From positions 62,001-126,000 of the forward strand of contig NZ_JARGNH010000001.1 in assembly GCF_029213205.1 (NCBI RefSeq): a stretch of 64,000 nucleotides of DNA, given 5' to 3'. Each line of letters opens with the position of its first letter. Positions within the stretch are counted from its first letter, which is position 1. Source of the stretch: Pseudooceanicola sp. GTDB taxonomy: Bacteria > Pseudomonadota > Alphaproteobacteria > Rhodobacterales > Rhodobacteraceae. Shown here in pieces: positions 18,455-21,640 of the stretch. The notes under the pieces are model-generated. The model had not been told where the DNA came from. It was given only the letters and a program-made list of their open reading frames with translations, and did not search any database. The position numbers and the translations under genes were made by a program.

Positions 18455-21400
18455 TCAGCCCAGTTCGGCAAGCCGCGCCAGCGCTGCCTCGATTTGCCGT
18501 GCCTCGTCCTGGCGCGCTGCCAGATTGGCCTGCGCCTCTGCAACCACCTCTTCGGGCGCGCTTTCGGCAAATTTCGGGTTCTTCAGCCGGCCCTCAAGCC
18601 CGCCGATTTCCTTGCCCAGCTTTTGCAGCGTCTTGTTCAGCCGCGCCTGTTCCTCGGCGACGTCGATCACCCCGGCCAGCGGCAGGCCAAAGGTGGCGCC
18701 CTCGGCGGGGATGGTGATGCAGCCCTTGGGAAAGGCCTCGACAAGGCTCAGCCCCTCAAGCCGCGCCAGCCGGGCGATCAGCGCCTCATTGCGCGCCCAG
18801 GCGCCCTGCGCGGCCGCGTCGAGCCCGGTCGAGACCAGCGGCAAGTGCAGCCCGGCGGGCACATGCACCTGGGCGCGGGCGGAGCGGATGTCTTCGATCA
18901 GCGCAATCACCCAGCCCATTTCGCGATCCGCCTCTGGATCGGCCAGATCGGCGGCGGCAATCTCGGGCCAATCGGCATGGATCAGCATCTTCGCCCGTGT
19001 GCCGGTGGTTTGCCACAGCTCTTCGGTGACAAAGGGCATGATCGGGTGCAGCAGGATCATGCATTGATCCAGCACATAGGCCATCACCTGCCGAGTCTCG
19101 GGTTTTTCGGCGGCATCCTCCTGCAGCAGCGGTTTCGAGAATTCGACATACCAGTCACAGACCTTGCCCCAGACGAACCGGTAAAGTGCCGCGGCGGCGT
19201 CATCAAAACGATAGGCGGCGAGCGCGGCATCGACCTCTTCGCGCACCCGCGCGGTTTCGCCGAGGATCCAGCGGTTCAGCGTCGCGGTGGCGGCGGGCGG
19301 CGTGGCTTGCGTCTCATGCCCCTCCCAGACGCCGTTCATCTCGGCAAAGCGGGCGGCGTTCCACAGCTTGGTGCCGAAATTCCGATAACCGGCGATGCGC
19401 TGCATGTCGAGCTTCAGCACCCCGCCGAGCGAGGCCATGGCGGCATTGGTAAAGCGCAGCGCATCGGCGCCGTATTCACCAATGATATCCAGCGGATCGA
19501 CGACATTGCCCAGCGATTTGGACATCTTCTTGCCCTTGGCGTCGCGCACCAGCCCATGCAGATAGACCTCGTGGAACGGGATATCCTGGACCACCGCCAG
19601 CTGCATCATCATCATCCGGGCGACCCAGAAGAACAGGATGTCCTGCCCGGTGATCAGCACCGAGGTCGGAAAGTATTTCTGCAATTCCGGGGTGTTGTTG
19701 GGCCAGCCCAAGGTGCCGATCGGCCAGAGGCCGGAAGAGAACCAGGTGTCGAGCACGTCGGGGTCGCGACGCATTGAAATCTTTATGTGCTGTGTGCCGG
19801 AAACACTGTCGTTTTCTACCTGGAACCGCGAGCTTCGAGGTTGTTCAAGTCGCCGTTTTGGATAAAGGTTCTCCAGTCCTGTACCCTTCATCAGTTTCCG
19901 GAAATCACCATATTCCTTATCTGTGGTCGGCCACGACGGTTCAGGGTCGACGAGAATTTCGTCCATCTCGAGTGTTGTCGCGCGTTCGAATATTTTGGAG
20001 TATTTTTCGAGCGCAATTTCTTTTGCAGATTGAAAGTCGTGGGCACAAAACATGAAATCGTTCCCGCGCACAATTTCCCCTTCCTCATTCAAGGAAAAGC
20101 CTGGCCCATACCAAACCGGGATCTGATGCCCCCACCACAGCTGGCGCGAAATGCACCAGGGTTCGATATTGTCGAGCCAGTGAAAATACGTCTTTTCACC
20201 GCTCTCCGGCAGGATCTTCACCTTGCCATCGCGCACCGCATCCAGCGCCGGGCCGACGATCTTTTCCGCATCGACAAACCATTGGTCGGTCAGCATCGGT
20301 TCGATCACCACTTTCGAGCGGTCGCCGAACGGCTGCATGATCGGCTTGGCCTCGACCAGCGGCACCAATGCCTCGGCGCCCTCGGCATCGGGTTTCAGCG
20401 CGGCCTTGCCCAGCACCGGATTGTCGGCGCGGGTCATCACCGCCAGCCCCTCGGCGGTGATTTCCTCGATCACCCGCTGGCGCGCCTCGAACCGGTCAAG
20501 GCCGCGCAGATGGTCGGGCACCAGGTTGATCGCATCCGCCTCGGCGACGCTGAGCTGCACCTCGCCCTTTGCCGCGTCTTGGGCGATTTTTGCTGCTTCG
20601 GCATAGGGTTGGCCGTCATTCCTCATCCGCGCCCTGGTGTCCATCAGCCGATACATCGGGATGTCATTGCGGCTGGCAACGCCGTAATCGTTGAAATCAT
20701 GTGCCCCGGTGATCTTGACCGCGCCCGAGCCGAAATTGGGATCGGGATAGTCATCCACGATGATCGGGATCAGCCGCCGATGCGCTTTCGGGCCAACCGG
20801 AATTTCGCAAAATTTCCCAATGATTGAGGCATAGCGTTCATCCGATGGATGAACCGCCACCGCGCCATCGCCCAGCATGGTTTCAGGCCGGGTGGTGGCG
20901 ATCGAGATGTAATCGCGGGTCTCGCGCAGGATCACCGTCCCGTCTTCATCTTTCTCCAAATACTCATAGGTCGCGCCGTCCGCCAAAGGGTATTTGAAAT
21001 GCCACATATGCCCGGCGACTTCCAGGTTTTCGACCTCGAGATCGGAAATCGCGGTTTCGAAATGCGGGTCCCAATTGACCAGCCTTTTGCCGCGATAGAT
21101 CAACCCCTTGTCATACATGTCGACAAAGACCTTGATCACCGCGTCATGGAAATTCGGGCCTTTGCCCGCCTCGGGATCGCCGGGCGCGCCGCCCATGGTG
21201 AACGCCTCGCGCGACCAGTCGCAGGAGGCGCCGAGGCGTTTCAGCTGACCAATGATGGTGCCGCGCGATTGCACCTTTTGCTGCCAGACCCGGTCGAGGA
21301 ATTTCTCGCGCCCCATCTCGGCGCGCGTCGGTTCCTGATTGGCCGCCATTTCGCGTTCGGTGACCATCTGGGTGGCGATGCCAGCGTGATCGGTGCCGGG

Positions 21401-21640
21401 CTGCCAGAGCGTGTCAAAACCGCGCATTCGGTGCCAGCGGATCAGGATGTCCTGCAGGGTGTTGTTAAAGGCATGGCCCATATGCAGCGAGCCGGTGACA
21501 TTCGGCGGCGGGATCATGATGGAAAACGGCTTTGCTCCTGGGCGGGCATTGGCCCCGGCGGCAAAGGCGCCGGACTCGTCCCAAGCGCGGTAAATCCGGG
21601 CTTCGGCTTCGGCAGCGTCGAAGGTTTTTTCCATCGCCAT
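18455..21640 (-). CDS. valS: Valyl-tRNA synthetase with a large insertion
   Basis: Charges tRNA-Val. It is a class I enzyme of 1061 residues, longer than the roughly 950 of E. coli ValS. The HIGH motif is [10 protein letters not shown] (near residue 54) and KMSKS is [21 protein letters not shown] near 507 and [15 protein letters not shown] near 625 are conserved, but about 110 residues separate them where E. coli ValS has about 30. The extra stretch (DNA about 19770-20098) has 47 percent GC by my hand count, against 60-70 percent in two flanking lines. A coiled coil forms the C-terminus ([20 protein letters not shown]). Confidence 0.96.

Follow-up and report, generated by a model that had tools for sequence, protein, structure and literature searches.

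A modular, hypervariable segment in the valyl-tRNA synthetase of Rhodobacteraceae as a probable site of cassette exchange

Background

Hypervariable cassettes of low GC content that are swapped between conserved flanks are known from the tips of polymorphic toxins, from CDI modules and from O-antigen loci. All of these serve secreted or surface functions, whereas valyl-tRNA synthetase (ValS, or ValRS), the subject of this work, is a cytosolic housekeeping enzyme. Foreign segments can also be found in frame inside housekeeping genes, as with the Rickettsia palindromic elements, but those are copies of one repeat, while the genome considered here has no second copy of its cassette. Synthetase variants linked to an inhibitor are known as well: mupirocin-resistant IleRS (NCBIfam MupA and MupB; PDB 8c8u and 8c8v) occurs as whole-gene variants and not, as in the case reported here, as a hypervariable segment; the AgnB2 synthetase (PDB 5ah5) is encoded by a separate gene. 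Moreover, a phage protein can act on a host ValRS, the example being Vs of bacteriophage T4, a modifier of the host enzyme known from enterobacteria; its likeness to our case lies in this action.

One precedent comes from an alphaproteobacterium. AgnB2 is reported to be a LeuRS of Agrobacterium radiobacter K84 that confers self-immunity to agrocin 84, with its toxin TM84, and the action of agrocin 84 on LeuRS is a precedent for attack on a class Ia synthetase (PMC5059758). AgnB2 is comparable in being a synthetase variant linked to a toxin aimed at that very synthetase (PMC5059758); the difference is that AgnB2 is the self-immunity synthetase of an antibiotic producer, whereas here an internal cassette of valS would be exchanged and no toxin is known. 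Finally, conserved signature indels of alphaproteobacteria are lineage-specific inserts in housekeeping proteins which are conserved within their clade (PMC2241609), the opposite of what is described below for class B; the word "valyl" is absent from the main text of that source. Among the papers listed by searches of the open-access literature, we found none with a description of variable ValRS cassettes.

Here we analyse the valS gene of a Pseudooceanicola genome, located in a window of 64,000 nucleotides (the whole stretch of DNA under study), together with its counterparts in Rhodobacteraceae and other alphaproteobacteria.

Results and Discussion

The focal valS gene and its variable segment

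The focal gene occupies positions 18455..21640 of the minus strand and encodes a valine--tRNA ligase of 1061 aa, uninterrupted, in agreement with the intact reading frame reported in the initial annotation of this DNA. The protein scores 1172.7 bits against NCBIfam NF004349 (an equivalog model, curated cutoff 704) and 919.8 bits against TIGR00422 (cutoff 612.1), which places it among the bacterial valine--tRNA ligases; it also matches Pfam PF00133, PF08264 and PF10458, and its nearest solved structure is 1gax. Residues H53, G55 and H56, K705-K708 and T249-T254, which we take to be the HxGH, KMSKS and editing-domain TTRPET motifs, are invariant across 70 ValS.

The variable segment lies past the editing domain, between conserved segments of the catalytic domain, in the connective segment that we assume to be CP3. 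Upstream it is bounded by the anchor [10 protein letters not shown] (residues 502-511; 20108..20137, minus strand), in which nine of ten columns are invariant or nearly so in the 70 ValS (Y511 is the exception), and downstream by DVLDTWFSS (residues 628-636; 19733..19759, minus strand), whose nine columns are all invariant in the same set. The two anchors are separated by 116 residues (512-627; 19760..20107, minus strand) of low GC and low GC3, assigned below to class B, against 31 residues in ValS of E. coli K-12. Three parts can be recognised in this cassette, all on the minus strand: an N-terminal variable loop (residues 514-530; 20051..20101), whose end was set by the start of the core and which overlaps two predicted strands (509-517 and 523-532); a retained ancestral core, [20 protein letters not shown] (residues 531-550; 19991..20050), matched by eye to the 33-aa segment of other alphaproteobacteria and predicted to be helical at 536-550; and a C-terminal variable loop (residues 551-623; 19772..19990), of a kind that is variable throughout class B and which includes two stretches with a predicted pLDDT below 50 (566-572 and 593-602). 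The enlargement reported in the initial annotation is thus real, but its figure of about 108 inserted residues was too high, since the core and its neighbours match the ordinary 31-33 residues; the true excess is about 83-85 residues, split over the two loops that flank the core. In Thermus, CP3 of ValRS carries a zinc knuckle made of two Cys pairs; residues 512-627 of the focal protein contain a single cysteine, C532.

An AlphaFold2 model of the focal ValS, built with 70 sequences, has a mean pLDDT of 87.9 and superimposes on Thermus ValRS 1gax with Z 39.4 and rmsd 3.1 over 787 aligned residues. Residues 509-562 are modelled with good confidence as two strands, the core helix and one more strand, and the pLDDT drops to 48-67 across residues 561-610.

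In the sequences read from outside the family, the site is short and nearly constant. The region from anchor to anchor of E. coli was matched over at least 80% of its length in 5375 of 5426 complete E. coli genomes, never with less than 90% identity, while the remaining 51 gave no match; three of 5376 E. coli valS places lie on records classed as plasmids. Of 28 alphaproteobacterial ValS from outside the family, taken from the top scorers in a sample of the whole class, 27 carry exactly 33 residues at the site and one carries 55, the usual 33-residue form being mostly GPDGxVFVExTEEEAxxxAxxHYGKxVxLxRDE.

Base composition in the focal genome

The low GC content noticed in the initial annotation was also found: GC is 0.49 in the cassette and 0.59-0.63 in its flanks, depending on the flank length taken, and GC3 is 0.52 against 0.78. 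The 108-codon interval of lowest GC in valS covers residues 517-624 (GC 0.47, against 0.63 in the rest of the gene). When all candidate ORFs with a minimum length of 300 aa in 791 kb of the focal genome (347 ORFs) were ranked by the shift of such intervals, valS came first for GC (dGC -0.156; mean -0.057, SD 0.021) and second for GC3. Using interior intervals of 50 codons, it was first of 419 by GC3, with a slim lead over two other ORFs; several of the next ranks in this list appear to be spurious ORFs, judging from their translations. The ORF ranking second of 347 by GC shift (G000:C11:453746-454777, minus strand, outside the window) has its low GC in the N-terminal third; its N-terminus looks like a nucleotide-sugar dehydratase by sequence, and it is possibly a mosaic polysaccharide gene.

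Five classes of segment at one site

We compared the content of this site in 203 distinct ValS from Rhodobacteraceae and some other alphaproteobacteria, mostly best matches to the focal protein and not a random sample (208 rows, reduced to 203 without duplicates; L078, L089 and L139 were dropped for pattern mismatch). A further 28 loci of the family were read outside the statistics. Segments fall into five classes, assigned by patterns of our own making with class B as the remainder, to which we added by hand the transfer of L041, L080 and L099 from B to C. Class A (96 of the 203) has 102-112 aa and is conserved, mostly with an acidic loop resembling an EF-hand; class B, that of the focal protein, includes 65 ValS with 59-124 aa, in which a core of about 20 residues is kept from the ancestral segment while the loops are unrelated between genomes. 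Classes C (74-77 aa) and S (28-29 aa) have 17 members each, and the rhizobial class M (51-52 aa) has eight.

Concerning class A, Pfam PF13405 (EF-hand) matches five of 59 members, with a best E of 0.015 that lies below the gathering cutoff. Judged by the EF-hand loop pattern as we assume it to be, the segment of L140 (L140:3013-3390) looks canonical. Modelled alone, the class A segment reaches a mean pLDDT of 80.9, and a Foldseek comparison of the model with PDB gave a best match of E 2.1. On sequence grounds, a calcium-binding ValRS is conceivable in this class.

Among 22 species of the focal genus, class B occurs in the focal genome alone; 16 species have class A (102-105 aa), two class C (77 aa) and three class S (28 aa). 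None of the 21 congeners has the focal segment, so that no close relative was found to carry the same insertion at normal GC. A class-B-like cassette of 111 aa, with GC 0.51 against 0.61, was also observed in Ahrensia sp. R2A130 (L092), which we take to be outside Rhodobacteraceae; it suggests that the phenomenon extends past this family.

This survey also bears on the simplest explanation, namely that the segment stems from misassembly, from contamination or from one foreign insertion restricted to the focal genome. It is true that in 393 other genomes of the family the focal sequence has no relative, save a chance match in L036 that by our reading lies in a flagellar locus. However, the frame is intact and the same pattern, with other sequences, recurs in many genera, including the culture-collection isolates L047, L082, L086 and L097; we consider this explanation refuted by the family survey, with hardly any probability left to it.

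Replacement and reuse of class B segments

In class A, the identity of the inserts climbs with that of the flanks, from a median of 0.46 to 0.93, whereas in class B it stays flat, with medians of 0.25-0.32 in all flank bins from 0.50 to 1.0 (L041, L080 and L099 are still counted as B in this comparison). A Cys motif could be recognised in 57 of the 65 class B members, and loops were compared within this set. In 20 class B pairs with flanks 85-98% identical, the loops are at or near chance with respect to shuffled sequences (z between -1.4 and 3.1; in one pair an N-loop was of insufficient length for comparison); these pairs were 22 before the L080 pair was excluded as class C and L091/L094 for having no Cys motif. 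It should be noted that pairs in these comparisons, as in that of omega below, share members and are not independent.

Two Natronohydrobacter MAGs (L049/L056) offer a clear example: their flanks are 98% identical at the protein level and their inserts 26%, with 97-98% DNA identity in the 60 bases on each side of the insert. The two Leisingera loci L047/L048, despite flanks that are 96% identical, even belong to different classes, B and C. Of the two readings offered in the initial annotation, that of a fast-evolving insertion proved right. That of a recently acquired domain fits the composition, but what we observe is not one domain inserted once; the focal segment is one allele at a site that turns over across the family.

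The distribution of class B has some phylogenetic signal, but little. On a tree of the flanks with 203 leaves, inferred by FastTree alone, the label B or not-B (65 B leaves) requires at least 44 changes, below all of 200 shuffles (mean 55.5, minimum 47); keeping only branches with support of at least 95, at least 37 changes are needed (shuffles: mean 47.9, minimum 40).

Similar cassettes do recur, although rarely, less than 1% of the pairs compared being above z 6 in either loop. The inserts of L097/L107 are 90% identical with flanks at 80%, those of L074/L143 63% with flanks at 68%, and L103, L187 and L200 share another cassette family. Recurrence can also concern a single loop. The C-loop of L220 matches those of L097 and L107 (z 16 and 20), but its N-loop does not, and with L059 it has neither loop in common (z 3.1 and 0.0) despite flanks that are 93% identical; L117/L217 have only the N-loop in common (z 6.4).

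Taken from these comparisons of sequence, the site very probably holds exchangeable cassettes in Rhodobacteraceae, and the focal segment is best described as one allele of a modular, hypervariable CP3 cassette, not as a lone foreign insertion.

Codon composition, constraint and length of the exchanged tract

The low GC3 of the focal cassette is general in class B, where inserts average 0.549 and flanks 0.783. The drop exceeds 0.1 in 56 of the 65 inserts, and in seven the difference is above -0.08; in classes A, C, M and S it averages -0.01 to -0.03. The retained core shares in this, its GC3 being 0.50 in class B, whereas in classes A, C and S the core lies at 0.80-0.83 (0.815 in S). Since the low GC3 extends to the core, it suggests that the cassettes have had a separate history and are more than weakly constrained loops; no single donor is indicated. 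Moreover, the GC3 of class B inserts tracks that of the host at an offset (slope 0.85, r 0.59), which is evidence against one fixed donor pool of low GC.

Omega was evaluated on 12 hand-picked pairs with alignable inserts, of which eight were computable and four saturated. The four class C pairs gave 0.06-0.31 and the four class B pairs 0.12 and 0.15 (both with dS near 2), 0.17 and 0.69 (L155/L160). Most established cassettes look constrained, with weaker support in B than in C. The initial annotation had spoken of an insertion that is tolerated; mere tolerance now seems doubtful, omega being below 0.35 in seven of the eight computable pairs, although class C accounts for four of these seven and, of the three that belong to class B, two are near saturation.

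The main rival to an explanation by selection is neutral turnover, in which CP3 would accept nearly every segment, whether folded or disordered, and segments would be replaced with no benefit through relaxed constraint together with frequent recombination by gene transfer agents or transformation. The tolerance of the site to lengths from 28 to 124 residues speaks for it, as do the stretches of the focal C-loop with predicted pLDDT below 50, the class B GC3 that follows the host and the one class B pair with an omega of 0.69. Most bacterial mutation is AT-biased, and under weak constraint such a bias could lower GC. However, the core is low in GC3 within B and not within S, C or A, which loosely constrained loops alone would not explain; the other seven computable pairs have a low omega; class A, at the same site, follows its flanks; and wholly different inserts between flanks that are 93-98% alike require change that is much faster than elsewhere in the gene. 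On balance we regard neutral turnover as rather unlikely, though it deserves to be taken seriously.

Next to swapped inserts (54 pairs), synonymous divergence does not clearly exceed the level seen next to unswapped inserts (98 pairs). An import of long tracts from distant donors is therefore not supported, and the exchanged tract is probably short, or comes from close relatives with other alleles, as would be expected of a polymorphism common within populations.

Searches for a source, a partner or a mobile element

In Pfam and NCBIfam no family was found for the focal insert at E up to 1, hence no splicing, homing or transposase domain; nor did it match PDB sequences or the phage and plasmid collections, and its pattern was not found in a wider collection of genome contigs. 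The whole ValS matches 76 "phage" records, all below 60% identity; the ten listed are at 36-45%, and some are bacterial contigs by name. These records were set aside. In its own genome the insert has no second copy, either as DNA or as protein, its single match being itself. Three candidate origins were rejected on these results: a reservoir of silent cassettes on which gene conversion could draw (absent from the genome), a dispersed repeat of the Rickettsia palindromic type (no further copies in the genome) and an intein or mobile insert (no matching domain in the insert).

The same searches weigh on the possibility of targeted DNA breakage, according to which a homing-type nuclease or a site-specific recombinase would hit the conserved DNA, and cassettes would be scars, or variants destroying the target, spread by repair. 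Replacement does look narrow, between the same two anchors. However, the Pfam and NCBIfam searches showed neither a nuclease nor a mobile-element domain in the insert, the genome has it only once, and the anchors are intact in classes A and S too; we judge this mechanism very improbable.

The genes next to valS were examined in 77 loci (of L037-L116), up to 3.5 kb on each side, and among the 22 largest gene clusters not one occurs with class B alone. A skew was seen in two of them, by p-values that are uncorrected for the 22 clusters and ignore relatedness: one resembling an ABC transporter (nine of 31 B against two of 29 A, p 0.043) and a second commoner with class A (13 of 29 A against three of 31 B, p 0.003). 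Neither in the neighbourhoods nor in the phage and plasmid searches was an antagonist, a partner gene or a phage counterpart of the cassette found.

These neighbourhoods concern another hypothesis, co-evolution with a variable partner, in which the cassette would dock an accessory protein or RNA (a regulator, a complex partner or a moonlighting role) differing between strains. The retained core and the constraint that appears on most alignable inserts agree with it, and so does the low GC3, which is typical of accessory genes. However, no cluster among those 22 is confined to B, the two skews being weak, and close relatives whose ValS flanks hardly differ would have to possess wholly different partners; we find this hypothesis improbable, though less so than targeted breakage.

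Comparison with LeuS and IleS

LeuS and IleS of the focal genome, compared with those of the genus, were used as controls, and colinearity had been expected. LeuS of the focal genome (G000:C10:41002-43710, minus strand, outside the window; L264:1002-3710) has instead an enlarged segment of 89 aa with low GC3 before KMSKS, presumably the leucine-specific domain. Among 80 LeuS, 69 have 39-47 aa in this segment and 11, the focal one included, at least 58. In eight of the 11 (the focal one and seven of ten others) GC3 is below that of the flanks by at least 0.14, and the mean GC3 difference is -0.15 in the 15 segments longer than 46 aa against 0.00 in the 65 shorter ones. Long LeuS segments are more alike than class B cassettes, with a median identity of 0.35, and the enlargement is not tied to the ValS class: G009, G013 and G064 have a long LeuS and a class A ValS (L023, L010 and L127). 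LeuS is a weaker, sporadic parallel of ValS. In IleS (G000:C42:52857-55799, minus strand; L332-L341), the loop ahead of WTTTPWT has 15-22 or 40-44 aa in the 11 proteins read; this loop of varying length has no general drop in GC3.

A possible explanation by diversifying selection

We infer that recombination brings in the new cassettes, as short tracts of DNA exchanged between the upstream anchor and DVLDTWFSS. With less certainty, CP3 may be the docking place of a harmful ValRS binder, such as a protein of a phage, a protein toxin taken up by the cell or an antibiotic of the Trojan-horse type, and rare alleles would escape this binder, giving negative frequency-dependent selection; the stable classes A and C and the short form would then mark lineages with another solution or with no exposure. 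This model is preferred because segments are replaced and do not drift, depend weakly on phylogeny, are reused as modules, have low GC3 and signs of constraint, and because the phenomenon concerns mainly one family and one site. On the other side stand the persistence of A, C and S in the same family, the phylogenetic signal in B, the omega of L155/L160, the four saturated pairs of 12 and the seven of 65 class B inserts with a small GC3 difference. No antagonist or partner gene having been found in the searches above, we keep diversifying selection by a ValRS-binding antagonist as a candidate cause of the cassette turnover to which we give slightly less than an even chance.

Conclusions

A practical consequence is that the variable part of valS is unsuited to phylogenies. 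Few natural inhibitors of ValRS are known to us, and the pairing of cassette alleles with strains would give a precise handle for finding an agent that attacks this enzyme. More generally, one expects a housekeeping synthetase to change slowly, along lines of descent, but in this family one site of ValS is rewritten wholesale between near-identical genes; for an enzyme that is essential and cytosolic, such rewriting is a sign of strong hidden selection. More speculatively, and with more doubt than for the antagonist of ValRS itself, class Ia synthetases, ValRS foremost and LeuRS in part, may be the front line of an undescribed arms race, in which a family of phage proteins, protein toxins or Trojan-horse antibiotics would dock to CP3 of ValRS and to the leucine-specific domain of LeuRS, and the bacteria would escape by swapping in short modular segments from a pool of alleles shared across Rhodobacteraceae.
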